The notes under the pieces are model-generated. The model was not told where the DNA came from. It worked only from the letters and a program-made list of their open reading frames with translations, and ran no database searches. From the NCBI GenBank assembly GCA_016763075.1, contig JAESUM010000013.1:1-37895 (forward strand): a stretch of DNA of 37,895 nt, in the 5' to 3' direction. This document shows, piece by piece, positions 2,851 through 26,083 of the stretch (the stretch's first letter is position 1; every line of letters begins with the position of its first letter). Position numbers and translations under genes: made by a program. Source of the stretch: Pseudomonadales bacterium. GTDB taxonomy: Bacteria > Pseudomonadota > Gammaproteobacteria > Pseudomonadales > JAHRWD01.

Positions 2851-3861
2851 TTGGCTATCATCACCCCACTTAGCCGCAAGCAGGTGCAACTATTTTTGCT
2901 GGACTACCCGCGCCTTGGCCAGCTAGTAGACCTGCAACCCACCGAGCACGGCATAGAAAACACCAACTACTTTGTGAGTCTGCAGCGCCAAGGGCACAAA
3001 CCTGCGCGCTACGTGCTTACCTTATTTGAACAACTCACAGCCCTGCAATGGCCCTTCTACAACCAGCTATTACAAACACTGGCAGCTCATGGGTTGCCAG
3101 TGCCGGCGCCCATGCCCAGCCAGCAAGATGCAATTTACACCTCTGTTAACCATAAACCGATGCTGCTTTTCCCGCGGTTCACAGGCAAACACCCTGGTCA
3201 CGTAAACACCCAACATTGCGAAGAAATCGGTTTATTTTTAGGTCACATGCACGGCATCACCAGCACGCTTAATATCCACAAACAAAACTCCAGCAACCTC
3301 GATTGGATGCACAAATGCCATACACAATTAAGGCACCATTTGAGCGCCATAGACTTACAATTGCTTGAATCAGAAATAGCGGTTTATCATGCCGCGCGCA
3401 CCAAATTTGGTGCGTTACCTGCTGGAATCATCCATGCTGATCTGTTTCGTGATAACGCCTTGTTTGAAGGCAACACACTCACTGGCGTGATAGATTTCTA
3501 CAACGCCTGCAGTGCGCCGCTGCTTTATGACTTGGCCGTAGTGGCCAATGATTGGTGCCGTTTAGCGCCCAAAACAGTGCCGACAGCAGCACCAAAAAAA
3601 GCGCCCTTAGAGAGCGCCACTTTTGAGTTCTCCCCGCAACTTACTACTTCACTGCTAAAAGCCTATTCGCAGCAACGAAGCATTACAGAGATAGAAAAAC
3701 AAGCCTGGCCACTGATGTGCCGGTTTGCGGCATGCCGGTTTTGGTTATCGCGCTTATTAAGCCACTACTTTGCAGAACCCGGCAAACCCAGCAAAGACCC
3801 TGCTGAGTTTCGGCGCATTCTACTTGAGCGCATTGAAACCCCTGCTCGGTTTGTTGAGTAA
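2851..3861 (+). CDS. thrB: Homoserine kinase (ThrB, APH-fold type)
   Basis: Homoserine kinase phosphorylates homoserine with ATP in threonine biosynthesis in the cytoplasm. The 336-residue protein belongs to the aminoglycoside-phosphotransferase-fold form found in pseudomonads, not the GHMP-kinase form of E. coli. Diagnostic segments are GIENTNYFV near the N-terminus, the catalytic loop IIHADLFRDNALF (about residue 192) and the metal-binding VIDFYNAC. An in-frame stop at 2836-2838 leaves a TTG at 2851 as the only usual start codon; an AGCGAG-like ribosome site lies upstream. It is slightly longer than the roughly 316-residue family norm because of an Ala/Pro/Lys-rich insert near residues 235-255. 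Its last 97 bases overlap the convergent gene on the other strand. Confidence 0.93.
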   Translation: MAIITPLSRKQVQLFLLDYPRLGQLVDLQPTEHGIENTNYFVSLQRQGHKPARYVLTLFEQLTALQWPFYNQLLQTLAAHGLPVPAPMPSQQDAIYTSVNHKPMLLFPRFTGKHPGHVNTQHCEEIGLFLGHMHGITSTLNIHKQNSSNLDWMHKCHTQLRHHLSAIDLQLLESEIAVYHAARTKFGALPAGIIHADLFRDNALFEGNTLTGVIDFYNACSAPLLYDLAVVANDWCRLAPKTVPTAAPKKAPLESATFEFSPQLTTSLLKAYSQQRSITEIEKQAWPLMCRFAACRFWLSRLLSHYFAEPGKPSKDPAEFRRILLERIETPARFVE

Positions 3862-4733
3862 CCGCTGAGCACTAACAAAGCCAAACCAGTTACAAATATT
3901 AACCCCGGCTCCGAAAGAACTATCGCCCGGCTGTTGGTGCCGGAGGTATCGACCACCGTAATGTTATCAATGGCGAATTCATCGCGAGAACCTGATCCCG
4001 CCAAATCATCAAACGACCAGCGTAAAAACAATGGGTCTGCCGCGGCCCAATTGATCGACGATAACGAAATAGATTCCAACACTCCGGCCCAACTGGCATT
4101 CGCATCTGCTGCTTCGTTGCTGTTAAAAACGGCTAACGAGTTATAGCTGTTTTCATCACCCATCGCATATTCAAACTCAACCACCGACGAACGGCCGGCG
4201 TTGTTTAGCTCAAACAGATCAAACTGAATATCTATTGAATGAATCGTCGCAGAGGACTGATTGATGATTCGTAATGAAATATCGCCAGGGGTTAAGTCCG
4301 AGCTGGTTTGCTGAATACCCAGCGCGACATTAGGTGAACCGTTACCATTGCTGATATCAAAGGCATATACCCCGCCGGTTGTTACACCGCCGTTGGAACT
4401 ACCACGTGCGAAATCACCTATGTCATAAGTTGCCGCAAATGTGCCGTCGCCATGAGATAACCCGGTCACACGAAACACCTCCGAATGTAGCTGGCCAGTA
4501 TTAGGGTTAATTGCAAACCCTGAGCCATCAAAACCAGAAAAGTTTTCGGAATATATGGTAGTGGCTAACGCCGGATAAGCACTTAATGCAAGCACGCTAA
4601 ACAGCGCGCAACGCCGAATGTTAAACAAATTTTTAGCGCACAAAGAAACAAGCGGTTTGATACTTTTTTCAAACCGCCGCTGAAAAATCCGAAGGGTACA
4701 AACGGCAGATCGTATACTGGGGAAACGTAGCAT
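3765..4733 (-). CDS. Exported PEP-CTERM-like protein of unknown function
   Basis: About 322 residues from an ATG at 4733, preceded by AAAGGAG 11 bases upstream; a GTG at 4763 would add ten residues. A long basic N-terminal stretch of about 45 residues precedes a signal-like hydrophobic core ending YPALA. The mature part is rich in Ser, Asn, Gly and Asp and looks like a beta-sandwich surface protein. Near the C-terminus there is SEPG, a hydrophobic helix (LIFVTGLALLVLSGY) and basic residues, which is the layout of a PEP-CTERM sorting signal. About 25 more residues follow, encoded opposite the end of thrB. Such a tail is unusual, because these signals normally end a few residues after the helix. 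The true function is unknown. A decayed PEP-CTERM gene lies just upstream. Confidence 0.7.
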   Translation of the reverse strand: MLRFPSIRSAVCTLRIFQRRFEKSIKPLVSLCAKNLFNIRRCALFSVLALSAYPALATTIYSENFSGFDGSGFAINPNTGQLHSEVFRVTGLSHGDGTFAATYDIGDFARGSSNGGVTTGGVYAFDISNGNGSPNVALGIQQTSSDLTPGDISLRIINQSSATIHSIDIQFDLFELNNAGRSSVVEFEYAMGDENSYNSLAVFNSNEAADANASWAGVLESISLSSINWAAADPLFLRWSFDDLAGSGSRDEFAIDNITVVDTSGTNSRAIVLSEPGLIFVTGLALLVLSGYSTNRAGVSMRSSRMRRNSAGSLLGLPGSAK

Positions 4734-4882
4734 CTTAGAAATCACTCCTTTGATATACAACACCGCGCATCCTGTGCAGTGGCGATTCCAACACTGGAAC
4801 CAAGTAGAAAACTTTACATTAACTGTCTGGTTTTATCACAGGTTATTTTTAAGCCTTGTAAAGCTTAAGCAAATTTTAATAC

Positions 4883-5624: not shown

Positions 5625-6179
5625 CTATTTTTTAGCTGGGTTTAGAACCAACTTGTCTTCTGGCTTACGTGTTCCAACATTACTCATGTCAGAAATTTGT
5701 GCCCAGTTAGCCGCGACGTCTTCAACCGTAACGTTTTTGCCAAGATCAATTTTTTCGTTTTGCATCATCTCTGCAACACCAAAAGAACCGCCCTGCGCCT
5801 GAATGATGACGCCATTTGGCGCATCGTCGCAAACCATGTATAGCGCACCAGGAGTAACTAGCTCAGGAGGCATTTGCTCAGCAACTTCACCAGGAAGTAG
5901 GTCTTCAGTCATACGTGTTAGCGCAGCTGGAGCCAATGAGTTGGTGTGAACGTTGTATTTTGCGCCTTCTAATTTTGCAGAGTTCATGAAACCAACCATG
6001 CCCAATTTAGCTGCAGAGTAGTTAGTTTGTCCGAAGTTACCGAACAATCCAGAACCAGAAGTAGTCATTAGGATACGACCATACTTTTGAGCTTTCATGA
6101 TATCCCAGCACGCTTTAGCCACGTTTACTGCGCCGATTAGGTGAACGTCACAAACCAGCTCAAAATCGTCCAGAGTCAT
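5625..6179 (-). CDS. SDR / 3-hydroxyacyl-CoA dehydrogenase-like, 3' part of frameshifted gene
   Basis: This 184-residue frame is the C-terminal part of a classical short-chain dehydrogenase resembling the (3R)-hydroxyacyl-CoA dehydrogenase domain of MFE-2 (HSD17B4 type). It begins MTLDDFELVCDVHLIGAVNV and carries the catalytic Ser (TTSGSG, about 41-43), Tyr54 and Lys58 (NYSAAK). The N-terminal cofactor-binding part lies in the frame ending at 6176. The two overlap by four bases (ATGA). A single minus-one shift on the AAA codon before the TGA would join them into a 295-residue protein, the family's usual size. Independent re-initiation at the ATG is possible but would give a fragment without the Rossmann glycine motif. 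The cause may be a real mutation, programmed slippage or an assembly error. Confidence 0.85.
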   Translation of the reverse strand: MTLDDFELVCDVHLIGAVNVAKACWDIMKAQKYGRILMTTSGSGLFGNFGQTNYSAAKLGMVGFMNSAKLEGAKYNVHTNSLAPAALTRMTEDLLPGEVAEQMPPELVTPGALYMVCDDAPNGVIIQAQGGSFGVAEMMQNEKIDLGKNVTVEDVAANWAQISDMSNVGTRKPEDKLVLNPAKK

Positions 6180-6511
6180 TTTGAGAAGCTTTTGTCACGC
6201 AGGATACCGGCGTTGTTAATCAAAATATGAACGGTGCCGAAAGCTTTAACCGCGTCGTCAACAATGCTTTGTGCGCCGGCACGGTCAGAAACTGAACCAC
6301 CGTTTGCAATGGCTTCGCCGCCAGCTGCTTTAATTTCAGCAACAACCGCATCAGCAGCTGCACTTGAACCGCCAGTACCATCTACTGAACCACCAAGGTC
6401 ATTCACAACTACTTTTGCGCCACGACGAGCAAGTTCAAGTGCGTGTGCTTTACCTAATCCATTTCCGCCACCGGTTACGATTGCGACTTTGCCTTCAAAA
6501 CTAATTGTCAT
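6176..6511 (-). CDS. SDR / 3-hydroxyacyl-CoA dehydrogenase-like, 5' part of frameshifted gene
   Basis: The N-terminal 111 residues of the same short-chain dehydrogenase. The ATG at 6511 is preceded by AAAGGA eight bases upstream, which decides the start over an in-frame extension to 6616. The NAD(P)-binding TGGGNGLG motif is at residues 13-20 and NNAG at 99-102. The frame ends in DKSFSK followed by TGA. Family members continue directly into a segment like KMTLDDFEL, which is exactly what the overlapping downstream frame encodes. Alone, this piece lacks the catalytic Tyr and Lys and cannot be an active enzyme. A likely role, if joined, is oxidation of a (3R)-hydroxyacyl-CoA or hydroxysteroid-CoA intermediate. 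The gene is divergent from murJ across about 260 bases in which I saw no other gene. Confidence 0.85.
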   Translation of the reverse strand: MTISFEGKVAIVTGGGNGLGKAHALELARRGAKVVVNDLGGSVDGTGGSSAAADAVVAEIKAAGGEAIANGGSVSDRAGAQSIVDDAVKAFGTVHILINNAGILRDKSFSK

Positions 6512-8930: not shown

Positions 8931-9001
8931 AGAGATGCGCCAAGGCGTGCTTACAATGCTTTCATACAACTCTAACAATAATAACGATCAAAGGAGTGAA
9001 C

Positions 9002-9517
9002 ATGCCTGAACCGAAAGTACTGACCGATGAACTGATGGCCTGGGTTGGCCGTGAGTCTGCCCCGAAAACCGCACAGGTTACCGAGCGAGACCTGCGCCGC
9101 TTTGCCACCGCCCACACATTGTGGGAGCCCAACCCGCTGCATTTTGATAAAGATGCCGCCGCCAAAACACCCTTTGGTGGAACCATCGCACCATTTTTAA
9201 GCTACGGTAATTCGTTTTCCGAATTCCCCCATGTTTCGGTATTGGGTGGCGATGGCCACTCTAGAAAAGTCGCACCCAAACAGCCAACCCTCACACCGCC
9301 TTTGCCACTGCCGCGCGCTATGGCAGGCGGAACCGAGGTCGAATACATTCGGCCAATCCGCGCAGGCGACACCATCACCCAACAATCAAAACTGGTTGAA
9401 CTGACTGAAAAGCTTGGCAAAAGTGGCCCGCTGGTATTTGTAACCACTGCCACCACGTACAGCAACCAAAATGGCAACCCCGCCGTCATCGTCAAAATGA
9501 CACTTATTTACCGCTAG
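9002..9517 (+). CDS. MaoC-like dehydratase subunit (FAS1-like N-terminal type)
   Basis: A 171-residue hot-dog-fold protein of the MaoC N-terminal / FAS1-like dehydratase group. A strong AAAGGAG precedes the ATG at 9002. The segment TLWEPNPLHFDKDAAAK is a variant of the hydratase-2 motif with a conserved His, and VEYIRPIRAGDTIT is typical of MaoC proteins. The gene lies nine bases upstream of a second MaoC gene, so the two probably form a heteromeric (R)-specific 2-enoyl-CoA hydratase like the ChsH1-ChsH2 pairs of steroid degraders. The substrate is not readable from sequence; a branched or steroid-type acyl-CoA is plausible. Together with the upstream SDR this resembles the two activities of peroxisomal MFE-2 carried on separate proteins. 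Confidence 0.85.
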   Translation: MPEPKVLTDELMAWVGRESAPKTAQVTERDLRRFATAHTLWEPNPLHFDKDAAAKTPFGGTIAPFLSYGNSFSEFPHVSVLGGDGHSRKVAPKQPTLTPPLPLPRAMAGGTEVEYIRPIRAGDTITQQSKLVELTEKLGKSGPLVFVTTATTYSNQNGNPAVIVKMTLIYR

Positions 9518-9526
9518 GAGGGCAAC

Positions 9527-9979
9527 ATGAGCACAGTTTATTGGGAAGACGTATCTGAAGGTCAGGAGATCCCCTCCAAAAGTATCGCTATTGGCGCTGC
9601 GCAGTTGTTCCAAGTGTCTGCCGCAACCTGCAATACCCACCGTATACATTTCGATACGCTTTGGGCGCAACATGAGGGCTACGAAGAACGTGTGATTCAC
9701 GGCCCTCTTCAAGGCGAAATTTTAGTGCAAACACTGGAAAGCTGGATTGGCACTACCGGCTGGCTACGAAAAATAAACTACAGCAACCGGCGCTACGCCG
9801 TGGTCGATGAAAACCTTACAGGCAAAGGCCGCGTCACCCACGTGTACCAAGACAATGGCCAATCCTTTGCTGATCTAGAAATATGGGTGGAAAAAGATTC
9901 CGGCGAAGTTACCGTACCGGGTACCGCAACGGTAGAATTGCCAACCCGTGAAAGGGCCATACAAGTACCCAAAGACTAG
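9527..9979 (+). CDS. MaoC-like dehydratase, second subunit
   Basis: A 150-residue hot-dog-fold protein, started by an ATG at 9527 with GGAGGG just upstream, nine bases after the previous stop. The segment TCNTHRIHFDTLWAQ corresponds to the hydratase-2 active-site motif, but the usual Asp-x-Asn pattern is altered to Asn-x-His while the His is kept. It is followed by the conserved VIHGPLQGEILVQ helix. It most likely forms a complex with the preceding gene product as an enoyl-CoA hydratase. A tandem repeat and a good terminator follow, marking the end of this transcription unit. Confidence 0.86.
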   Translation: MSTVYWEDVSEGQEIPSKSIAIGAAQLFQVSAATCNTHRIHFDTLWAQHEGYEERVIHGPLQGEILVQTLESWIGTTGWLRKINYSNRRYAVVDENLTGKGRVTHVYQDNGQSFADLEIWVEKDSGEVTVPGTATVELPTRERAIQVPKD

Positions 9980-10688: not shown

Positions 10689-12146
10689 TTACAACCGATC
10701 TTCCCGCAATTGTTTGCGCCGCGATTTACCAGCATCGTCGCGCAGTGGCTGCGTTACAAATTCGATGGTTCTGGGGATTTTGTAGCGCACCAATCGTTCT
10801 TTGAGGTAATCGAGCAACTCCTGTTCGCTAATACCACCGGGGGCATCGACGATGGCATGTACCATATTACCCATCTCTTCATCGGGCAAACCGATCACCG
10901 CTGAACTGCGCACAGGGCCGTAGCCATCAATCGCCGCCTCGATTTCTGCAGGGTAAATGTTGGCGCCGCCGGATAGAATCATATCGGTATTACGATCCGC
11001 CAAATAGAGATAACCGTCCTCATCTATACGGCCCAGATCCCCCAGGCTTTCCCAACCATCACCCAACATCTTTGCATCTGCACCAACGTATCGGTAGGTT
11101 GAACCGGGGCCGCTGGCTGGGCGCATATAGAGTTCACCGATTTCATTCGGCGGTAGCCTTTCGCCATTCTCGCCGACAATTTTCATCTCACATGATTCAT
11201 CAGGCTTACCGACAGAACCCCGATGAGCAAGCCATTCAGTACCGTTGATAATGGTTGAGCCAATACCTTCGGTGCCCCCGTACAGCTCCCAAATAACATC
11301 CGCCCCAAGCCACTCAATAAACCGATCCTTTAGCCATTCAGGGCAGGGAGATGCGAGATGCCAAAGGGCGCGCAGGCTCGACATATCGTATTTGGTGCGA
11401 ATATCTTCGGGCAGCTTCCAGATGCGCTGCATCATCGTCGGCACCATATACACCACATCGATGCGATACTGCTCAATGATCGACAGAGTTTGTTCCGCAT
11501 CAAAACGTGTGGTAACCACAACGGTGTTGCCCTTAAACAGCGCTGACATTCCCCACATAAATGGCCCATTGTGGTACATCGGCCCAGGGATCAACATTGC
11601 ACCCTGCTGGTGAATCTCCAGCATTTCGCCATCAATATCCCAGACCGCAGGAATAGAAGAAACAATCAGCTTGGGACGACCGGTGCTGCCGCCAGATGTC
11701 ATCGCTTTTAATGAGTCTGCAGTAGCTTCTGGCAACTGCTCTGCTGAGAGAACATGGTCTTTTATCACGGTTTTCGTATAACCAACCGGAACAGAAGTGA
11801 CATTGGGATAATCCTCATCCGCAACGCCAACCACCAAACCCGGTGCGGCTAATTCGATCAGCTGATCAAGCTCAAATTTAGGCAATTTAGCAGAAACCGG
11901 CTGCGGCGTTGCCCCCAACTTCCACGCCGCAAGGCTAGCCTGGAAAAATTCAACACCATTGGGTAAGGCAATGGTCACGAAATCATTTTGATTCACCCCA
12001 AGCGCTTGGTACGCGCGGGCAAGTTGATTGGTGGTTTGCTCTAAAGTTTTCCAATCTAGTTTTTCATCTTCATGAACTAACGCAATCGCATCTGGCTGGA
12101 TCTCAGCCCAATAAGCAACAACACGAGAGATGGGGATTATGTGCAT
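10689..12146 (-). CDS. AMP-forming acyl-CoA synthetase (bile-acid/fatty-acid CoA ligase type)
   Basis: A 485-residue member of the acyl-adenylate-forming family, which activates a carboxylic acid to its CoA thioester with ATP. The P-loop is MTSGGSTGRPK (about residue 150) and the second core motif is ELYGGTEGIG. The hinge region runs GDLGRIDEDGYLYLADR, followed by DMILSGGANIYPAEIEA. The catalytic C-terminal Lys is in DDAGKSRRK. The start is an ATG at 12146 with AGGA eight bases upstream. It is rather short and most like the acid-CoA ligases of steroid and bile-acid pathways, but the substrate cannot be fixed from sequence. It could feed the nearby SDR and MaoC enzymes, although it lies in a separate transcription unit. 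Confidence 0.9.
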   Translation of the reverse strand: MHIIPISRVVAYWAEIQPDAIALVHEDEKLDWKTLEQTTNQLARAYQALGVNQNDFVTIALPNGVEFFQASLAAWKLGATPQPVSAKLPKFELDQLIELAAPGLVVGVADEDYPNVTSVPVGYTKTVIKDHVLSAEQLPEATADSLKAMTSGGSTGRPKLIVSSIPAVWDIDGEMLEIHQQGAMLIPGPMYHNGPFMWGMSALFKGNTVVVTTRFDAEQTLSIIEQYRIDVVYMVPTMMQRIWKLPEDIRTKYDMSSLRALWHLASPCPEWLKDRFIEWLGADVIWELYGGTEGIGSTIINGTEWLAHRGSVGKPDESCEMKIVGENGERLPPNEIGELYMRPASGPGSTYRYVGADAKMLGDGWESLGDLGRIDEDGYLYLADRNTDMILSGGANIYPAEIEAAIDGYGPVRSSAVIGLPDEEMGNMVHAIVDAPGGISEQELLDYLKERLVRYKIPRTIEFVTQPLRDDAGKSRRKQLREDRL

Positions 12147-23214: not shown

Positions 23215-24030
23215 TTAACTTTGACAACGTTCACAGAACACAGTTTGTCGCTGACCAATTCGCGCTTCCGCTAGGTTGCGTTGGCATCGGTGGCACGGCT
23301 CACCACTGCGACCATAAACCTGCAACGATTGCTGGAAATACCCTGGTTTACCTTCGTTGCCTAAAAAATCCCTAATACTAGAGCCGCCTTGCTCGATGGC
23401 TTTTTCTAGCGTATTGGTGATTGCAGCCACTAACTTTTGGTAGCGCTTAAGGCTCACCGAACCCGCCTTACGGCTCGGTAAAATGCCGGCAATATGCAGC
23501 GCTTCGTTGGCGTAAATATTCCCAACACCCACCACAACGGCTTGGTCCATAATAAAATTCTTAATCGGCACTGCACGTTTGCGTGAGCGTTCAAAGAGAT
23601 GCTGAGCATTAAACTCTGCCGACAACGGCTCTGGGCCTAGTTTGGCTAACAAAGGGTGTTGCTCAAAAGCGCCCTCTATCCACAGTACAGCGCCAAAACG
23701 TCGAGGATCAGTAAAACGCAAACAGCTGCCGCCTTCGAAGTCGATATCAACATGGTCATGTTTTTGCGCCGTTGTAGCCTCTTGCAACACCCTAAGGTTT
23801 CCAGACATTCCCAAATGAATCAGCAAATGACCGGTATCGAATTCCAACAATAAATATTTACCACGGCGATGAACCTGCTTAAGGCGCTGTCCTTTCGCAA
23901 TTTCAGCCAACCCTTCCGTGATCGGCCAACGCAGTTTTGGTTGGCGTATGGTCACGCGATCGACAGCGCAACCAACGATGTGCGGCTCAATACCGCGACG
24001 GGTAGTTTCAACTTCAGGTAGCTCAGGCAT
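23215..24030 (-). CDS. mutM: Formamidopyrimidine-DNA glycosylase (Fpg)
   Basis: Base-excision repair enzyme that removes 8-oxoguanine and formamidopyrimidines and cuts the abasic site. The 271-residue protein starts MPELPEVETTRRGIEP, giving the catalytic Pro2 and Glu3 after Met removal. The conserved lysine region (HRRGKYLLLEF) follows, and the C-terminus has the zinc finger with Cys pairs CHRC and CERC. The length is the family norm. The ATG at 24030 is divergent from the hydantoinase-like gene, with 73 bases between them. Confidence 0.97.
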   Translation of the reverse strand: MPELPEVETTRRGIEPHIVGCAVDRVTIRQPKLRWPITEGLAEIAKGQRLKQVHRRGKYLLLEFDTGHLLIHLGMSGNLRVLQEATTAQKHDHVDIDFEGGSCLRFTDPRRFGAVLWIEGAFEQHPLLAKLGPEPLSAEFNAQHLFERSRKRAVPIKNFIMDQAVVVGVGNIYANEALHIAGILPSRKAGSVSLKRYQKLVAAITNTLEKAIEQGGSSIRDFLGNEGKPGYFQQSLQVYGRSGEPCHRCQRNLAEARIGQRQTVFCERCQS

Positions 24031-24103
24031 TTACGCTGCACTCGGTAGAAAATATGAGACACTACACTAAAATAAGCATCTTTTATCAGGGCGACCAACC
24101 AGC

Positions 24104-26083
24104 ATGATTTTGGGTATTGATACCGGCGGCACGTTCACTGACTTTGTTTTACTCGATAGAGGTCAAGTCACTATTCACAAAGTGCTTTCTAGCCCCGCTG
24201 CACCTGAGCAAGCCATTCTCGAAGGCATTGCCGACTTGCAGCTACTTGAGCATGTAAAAAATGGCACGCTGCGGGTTATTCACGGCACAACCATCGCCAC
24301 CAATGCGGCATTACAGGGTAAAGGTGTTAAGACCCTGTTCATCACCAACCGCGGTTTTGCAGATATGCTTAGCATTGGCCGTCAAGCCCGCGAGAAACTC
24401 TACGACTTGCAACCCAATCATCAAACCGTCCCTGTGCCGCCAGAGCTATGCCTCGAAATAGATGTTCGAATGGATCACCACGGCAAGGTGTTAAAAGACC
24501 TTGAACCCAAAGATTTAACGGCACTAGTTCAGCAAGTTGAGCAACTTAACCCCGAAGCCGTTGCGATAAACCTTTTGTATTCTTACCGTGATGACAGCCA
24601 CGAAAAGCAGATTCAAGCAGCACTACCAGAACAGCTGTTTGTATCGCGTTCATCACAGGTATTACCCGAATATAAAGAATATGAACGCGGCATGGCAACC
24701 TGGCTCAATGCCTGGCTTGGGCCATTAGTAGAAAAATATTTATCGCAGCTAAAGACTCAGTTAAGCCCAGCAAACATTGCGATTATGCAGTCATCCGGCG
24801 GCACCATAGACATTGACCAAGCCTCCCAACGGGCGGTGAACTTGCTACTTTCTGGGCCAGCAGGCGGCTTAGCAGGCGCTGCGTATATGGGTGAGCAGGT
24901 GAGCAAAAACCAACTCATCACCTTTGATATGGGCGGCACCTCAACCGATGTAGCGCTTATTGACGGTCAAATTAGCCTCACCACTGATTCTAAAATTGGG
25001 CCTTACCCAGTCGCAGTGCCAACGGTAGATATGCACACCATTGGTGCCGGTGGCGGCTCTATTGCTTACCTTGATGACGGTGGTTTATTGCAAGTTGGCC
25101 CGCAATCTGCCGGGGCAATTCCTGGACCGGCTTGTTACGGGAAAGGCGGAGAAAAACCCACCGTAACCGATGCCAACGCGGTGCTTGGGCGTCTACGGCC
25201 CGACGCCTTTCTTGGCGGCCGAATGGCTCTCGATATAGACGCCGCAAAACAAGCCATCAGCAGCCTCGCGCAGCCATTGAAATTCAGTATTGAAGAAACC
25301 GCGCTGGGTATTTTGCAGGTAGCGAACCAGCATATGATACGGGCCCTGCGGGTGATTTCGGTTGAACGTGGGTTAGACCCGAGGAATTTCACGCTATGCT
25401 GCTTTGGCGGAGCCGGTGGCTTGCACGTGTGTGCATTAGCGCAAGCGCTTTCAATTCCTACGGTGCTTGCGCCCATTCACGGCGGAGTACTGTCGGCATT
25501 TGGCATGCTGGTTGCGCCGCCGGAGCGCCAGCTATCGCGCACCTGGCAAGTACTGTTGCATGAAGCCGATCCAAGCACCATTGAGCAAATACTGCTCTCA
25601 ATGAAAACCCAAGGACAACAAGAGCTGATTAACGAAGGCATACCTGCCGAGGCAATTTACGCCTCGCCAAGTCTAGATCTACGCTATGCCGGGCAGTCTT
25701 ATACGCTGAACATGCCCTGGAGCGATTTGCAGGCAACCCAAGCGGCATTTCATCAACTACACCAACAACGCTATGGTCATCAGTTTGAGCTGCCGATAGA
25801 GCTGGTTAATGTTCGCCTTGCGGTGCGGGCTGAACCCCAATCCATTGAGTTGACTAACCCGTCAACTCAAACACAACAACAGCCCGTCACACCCCAACTA
25901 GGCTTAACACTTGCGGGTATCGAGGAGCCTGCGATGGTGATAGAGCGCAGCGCATTGAACGTTGGCAAACGGCTTCGCGGGCCACTGCTGATTACCGAGC
26001 AAACCGCTACAACATTGGTTGCGCCCAATTGGTGGGTAGAGCTCGACGAAAGAGGTAATTTATTACTGACATTTGAGGGGTAG
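24104..26083 (+). CDS. Hydantoinase/oxoprolinase A-like protein (HyuA family)
   Basis: A 659-residue protein with the ASKHA-type ATP-binding fold of the hydantoinase A/5-oxoprolinase/acetone-carboxylase group. The N-terminal GIDTGGTFTDFVLLD phosphate loop, GTTIATNAALQGKG, and the second DMGGTSTDVALIDG motif are intact, as is GAGGGSIAYLDDGGLLQVGP. Such proteins phosphorylate a cyclic amide or ketone with ATP and normally need a HyuB partner for hydrolysis or carboxylation. No HyuB is encoded here: the next gene is psd on the opposite strand, 60 bases away. Either the partner is elsewhere or the protein acts alone. The substrate is unknown. Confidence 0.88.
   Translation: MILGIDTGGTFTDFVLLDRGQVTIHKVLSSPAAPEQAILEGIADLQLLEHVKNGTLRVIHGTTIATNAALQGKGVKTLFITNRGFADMLSIGRQAREKLYDLQPNHQTVPVPPELCLEIDVRMDHHGKVLKDLEPKDLTALVQQVEQLNPEAVAINLLYSYRDDSHEKQIQAALPEQLFVSRSSQVLPEYKEYERGMATWLNAWLGPLVEKYLSQLKTQLSPANIAIMQSSGGTIDIDQASQRAVNLLLSGPAGGLAGAAYMGEQVSKNQLITFDMGGTSTDVALIDGQISLTTDSKIGPYPVAVPTVDMHTIGAGGGSIAYLDDGGLLQVGPQSAGAIPGPACYGKGGEKPTVTDANAVLGRLRPDAFLGGRMALDIDAAKQAISSLAQPLKFSIEETALGILQVANQHMIRALRVISVERGLDPRNFTLCCFGGAGGLHVCALAQALSIPTVLAPIHGGVLSAFGMLVAPPERQLSRTWQVLLHEADPSTIEQILLSMKTQGQQELINEGIPAEAIYASPSLDLRYAGQSYTLNMPWSDLQATQAAFHQLHQQRYGHQFELPIELVNVRLAVRAEPQSIELTNPSTQTQQQPVTPQLGLTLAGIEEPAMVIERSALNVGKRLRGPLLITEQTATTLVAPNWWVELDERGNLLLTFEG

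Follow-up and report, generated by a model that had tools for sequence, protein, structure and literature searches.

An SDR gene split at an AAAATGA junction in a draft genome is a single continuous frame in its same-genus relative

Introduction

When a conserved SDR gene ends at a possible slip site and restarts one base back, is it recoded, divided into two proteins, freshly mutated or wrongly recorded? The question is raised by the window analysed here, a stretch of 37,895 nucleotides that corresponds to contig C89 in a draft genome of 2.65 Mb (95 contigs, 95.33% complete). Four readings were listed in the original prediction for this locus, i.e., programmed frameshifting, a split enzyme made by re-initiation, a recent loss of one base from a run of five A and a sequencing error. 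Below, the split gene is described and compared with its relatives, and the readings are weighed in turn.

Results

The split, the -1 relation between the two frames and the ATGA overlap all exist in the given sequence. On the minus strand the junction reads ...AGC TTC TCA AAA TGA CTC TGG..., and its parts are as follows.

6179..6511, minus strand: upstream SDR piece of 111 residues, the cofactor-binding half (translation, Pfam match)
5625..6179, minus strand: downstream SDR piece of 184 residues plus stop, with the Ser/Tyr/Lys region, in the -1 frame (translation, Pfam match)
6176..6184, minus strand: junction TCA AAA TGA with the overlapping ATGA; the run of four A lies at 6182-6179
6184-6182, minus strand: TCA codon (sequence)
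6181-6179, minus strand: AAA codon (sequence)
6178-6176, minus strand: TGA, stop of the upstream frame (sequence)
6179-6177, minus strand: ATG opening the downstream frame, in -1 relation to the upstream frame (ATGA stop-start overlap)

The upstream frame opens with the ATG at 6511 and encodes 111 residues, the last four being SFSK, and the downstream frame gives 184 residues beginning with MTLDDFEL; the sum, 295 residues, is the length of the intact protein in the same-genus genome described below (G001). The original prediction had described a frame ending in TCA AAA TGA on the minus strand, a -1 restart at ATG and a 295-residue sum, all of which are borne out by the sequence and the translations, and the coupled ATGA stop-start overlap that it had pointed out is indeed found at 6179. 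The upstream half matches positions 1-93 of the 195 in the adh_short profile (PF00106) and the downstream half positions 97-188, i.e., the break falls within a single adh_short domain, after NNAGILRDKSFSK, with the cofactor motifs confined to the upstream piece and the Ser/Tyr/Lys region to the downstream piece. Neither half reached a curated NCBIfam cut-off among the 25 models listed for each, of 168 and 109 matched, respectively, as is expected because they are fragments.

The intact G001 protein carries TGGGNGLG at residue 13, NNAG at 99, TTSGSG at 150 and YSAAK at 165, which we take to be the Rossmann glycine motif, the NNAG motif and the Ser/Tyr-x3-Lys of a (3R)-hydroxyacyl-CoA dehydrogenase type SDR. 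Its residues 3-285 of 295, C-terminal extension included, align to PDB 2et6 (whole-sequence E 8.5e-124 over two SDR units; best unit 2.6e-72), and other structure matches are 1gz6 (9e-76) and 3oml (4.8e-73). On these similarities the intact protein is predicted to be an SDR of the (3R)-hydroxyacyl-CoA dehydrogenase type. Three neighbours, named from reading their translations, are found in the window.

8999-9517, strand not given: MaoC-like
9527-9979, strand not given: MaoC-like
10689-12146, strand not given: AMP-dependent ligase-like

MaoC-like and AMP-dependent ligase neighbours would fit a role in acyl-CoA metabolism.

A DNA search of 56 genomes, the window's own included, gave one same-genus genome, G001, and a family search covered these same two genomes. 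The G001 orthologue reads TCA AAA ATG ACC at the site, with five A in a single 295-codon frame. Five A and one continuous frame in close relatives had been named in the original prediction as the finding that would speak against its slip site, and this is what the single same-genus genome has. The break is absent from this one close relative and lies inside one conserved domain, a combination expected of an indel or a sequencing error in a functional gene. Among homologous loci the gene is continuous through the site in 80/80 and split there in none (best 80 of 513 confirmed related stretches); the downstream half served as query, so that these 80 are not a random sample, yet a split gene could have been found in this way too, and the 80 include L034 (JARGPR010000004.1), which is the same record as G001 and counts once. 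A conserved stop/start overlap of two genes, as in a translationally coupled pair, was likewise seen in 0/80 of the best of 513. AAA ATG A was found in 2 and AAG ATG A in 18 of these 80 loci, and the five-A run itself was seen only in G001/L034 among the loci inspected; judged from these sequences, the A-run site is not conserved in homologues generally.

Both halves of the gene are under strong purifying constraint when compared with G001. In the N-terminal half (110 codons) 30 synonymous and 1 nonsynonymous changes were counted (dS 0.476, dN 0.0041; dN/dS about 0.009), and in the C-terminal half (184 codons) 58 and 3 (dS 0.717, dN 0.0071; dN/dS about 0.010). The constraint is equally strong on the two halves, and neither side of the break has decayed. 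The analyst picked 34 window frames from the list of open reading frames and ranked them by identity to G001; the two SDR pieces lead (99.1% and 98.4%), and the frame in third place has 92.8%. With the halves equally constrained and at the top of this ranking, the break would appear to be either very recent or not real, and we infer that the SDR probably worked as a single unit until very recently, or still does. At the DNA level the SDR is 89% identical to G001 (290/294 residues), and the other aligned window blocks lie at about 66-84%, the SDR itself being contained in a 78% block. High expression or recent exchange could be the cause of this far stronger conservation of the SDR. The lowest identity of the 34 frames (50% to G001) belongs to a frame at 3765-4763, which overlaps the end of the gene at 2851-3861 and whose product, to judge from the translation, resembles an exported protein anchored in the membrane by its C terminus.

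The coincidence of slip site, stop and restart has a simple origin. Loss of one A from AAA ATG A necessarily gives both TCA AAA TGA and ATGA, and since all three features arise from a single base loss they represent one event, not three. When the loss of one A was simulated in the 64 coding A runs of at least five in the 27 other window genes, a stop followed within four codons in 7/64 and the exact AAAATGA arose in 0/64. The configuration is uncommon, but it is a single event and was noticed post hoc. A general caution follows for similar loci, as a one-base loss at Lys-Met before A mimics a slip site, stop codon and coupled restart all together, and these by-product signs are not independent evidence for recoding.

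A frame-break scan, which is blind to breaks close to the ends of genes and in genes of low conservation, was made with 381,969 bases of the window's own genome (G000) against 1,073,994 bases of G001. In the forward direction ortholog-like matches in the sample were obtained for 128 of 926 G001 ORFs (34 of these matches lie in the window), and two frame breaks in G000 were found among these 128 matches, one in the SDR, the only window gene flagged, and one in an xdhC-like gene.

C56 about 24,105-24,120, strand not given: frame break in the xdhC-like gene, a net one base relative to G001

The xdhC-like gene (L144:8686-9767; G000:C56 about 23,686-24,767) is broken between its XdhC_CoxI and XdhC_C domains. 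There is no long homopolymer at the site, and this break therefore gives no pointer to a homopolymer error process. In the reverse direction, with G000 ORFs placed onto G001, 128 of 356 ORFs matched and one candidate appeared; it was rejected as spurious, its upstream piece reading antisense to the start of another SDR-like gene (letters read by eye). Gaps in the window DNA alignment that are not multiples of three were also rejected as frame breaks and taken as noise in diverged or non-coding stretches, because 34/34 window frames match G001 at the protein level and the SDR is the sole flagged gene.

Sequence permitting -1 re-pairing is present at the junction (A_AAA), as a tetramer only. No Shine-Dalgarno-like stimulator was seen by eye just upstream of the junction. 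A downstream stimulatory structure was not found in the 100 nt from the ATG, the one stretch folded, with pseudoknot-free models, where the minimum free energy was -22.6 against a shuffled mean of -22.7 (z 0.03) and 97/200 shuffles fold at least as well.

Discussion

The explanation that best accommodates these results is that the gene encodes, in one continuous frame, an ordinary SDR of 295 residues, presumably of the (3R)-hydroxyacyl-CoA dehydrogenase type, and that the given sequence would be one A short in a five-A run, with the slip site, the stop and the coupled restart as automatic by-products. The missing A would most likely stem from a consensus (sequencing or assembly) error in the 95-contig draft, an origin that is slightly favoured over fresh mutation and that we consider probable on balance. 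With the two SDR pieces heading the 34 window frames in conservation, a fixed null allele would be surprising. The second frame break of the draft, in the xdhC-like gene, set against a reverse scan whose one candidate was spurious, counts on the side of error as well. In the accessible part of PMC3711429, isolated frameshifts validated by BLASTp are expected to be sequencing errors rather than genuine indels, and those also confirmed by Pfam may be errors or indels in pseudogenes. On the other hand, the 27 other window genes carry 64 A and 56 T runs of at least five (120 in all, up to A8 and T7), and one single-frame G001 match spans 88% or more of each of their proteins, a result that speaks against systematic trouble with homopolymers. 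One break each way among the sampled genes offers little ground for judging the assembly to be poor, and the difference between two breaks and none is too small to prove it.

It is also quite conceivable, if short of probable, that a real and very recent one-base deletion in the A run has left the sampled population with a null or nearly null allele. Both halves are constrained alike, as they would be after an event too recent for decay, the unbroken homopolymer-bearing genes of the window weaken the case for systematic error, the xdhC-like gene is broken as well, and replication slippage in A runs is ordinary. The genome has further SDR-like DNA matches at C56:23120, C49:36570 and C56:41368, which are 65-70% identical to parts of the gene, and such paralogues might partly cover the lost function. 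Against a fresh deletion, loss of so conserved a frame should be selected against, and the substitution pattern has no sign of decay. Two of the four readings originally listed, one-base loss from five A and sequencing error, thus fit the evidence and are inseparable here, while programmed frameshifting and a re-initiated split enzyme are left unsupported by the continuity of 80/80 loci (best of 513) and the five A of G001.

It is unlikely that lysyl-tRNA, slipping spontaneously by -1 at a low rate on A_AAA before TGA, partly masks a real deletion and yields traces of full-length enzyme ("compensatory" frameshifting). Cognate AAA re-pairing is possible in the -1 frame and compensatory frameshifting is a class described in the available part of PMC5009743. 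The same part also reports that polymerase slips efficiently on nine consecutive A or T, a run much longer than that of the SDR. Against such masking, E. coli Z_ZZN tetramer constructs lacking a stimulator averaged 0.147% and those lacking a motif 0.112% in the available part of PMC4066793, and A_AA.A was the weakest of six motifs clearly responding with a pseudoknot; because no stop codon followed the motif immediately in these constructs, their fit to A_AAA TGA is inexact. The unremarkable fold of the 100 nt from the ATG also speaks against such masking. A gene that was truly broken yet compensated would help to show what level of spontaneous slippage is enough to sustain a conserved enzyme. 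Still less likely is the lineage-specific variant in which the species truly carries four A and slippage on A_AAA before UGA, with no stimulator, keeps the enzyme working.

Programmed -1 ribosomal frameshifting yielding two products is very improbable. A_AAA does adjoin the stop codon in the right frame relation, but the site is not conserved, the G001 orthologue and the 80 loci (best of 513) being continuous, the shorter product would be without the Ser/Tyr/Lys region, and no unusual fold was found in the one stretch tested. Least credible of all is a split enzyme assembled from two polypeptides made by termination-reinitiation at ATGA, as the overlap that suggests it is automatic from the base loss, the cut lies inside one adh_short domain and parts the cofactor motifs from the Ser/Tyr/Lys region, and 0/80 loci (best of 513) are split at the site.

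With regard to known systems, the predicted enzyme shares its SDR unit and C-terminal extension with the peroxisomal multifunctional enzyme type 2 (2et6; 1gz6 and 1zbq, i.e., 17-beta-HSD type 4; 3oml), and differs from it in being a stand-alone single unit with an interrupted frame. With bacterial -1 programmed frameshifting at A-rich sites, as described for dnaX and the IS3 family in the parts of PMC4066793 and PMC3711429 consulted, the junction has the A run and the -1 direction in common, whereas the SDR site is a tetramer and not a heptamer, is not conserved and has no stimulator that was found. There is a further resemblance to the singleton frameshifts of GeneTack, ascribed to indel or sequencing error in the available text of PMC3711429, which like the SDR break occur in one genome and not in the relatives examined, and with which the SDR shares homology across the break inside one Pfam domain; as far as that text describes the class, the SDR departs from it in that its stop and downstream start overlap, an arrangement that can mimic translational coupling.
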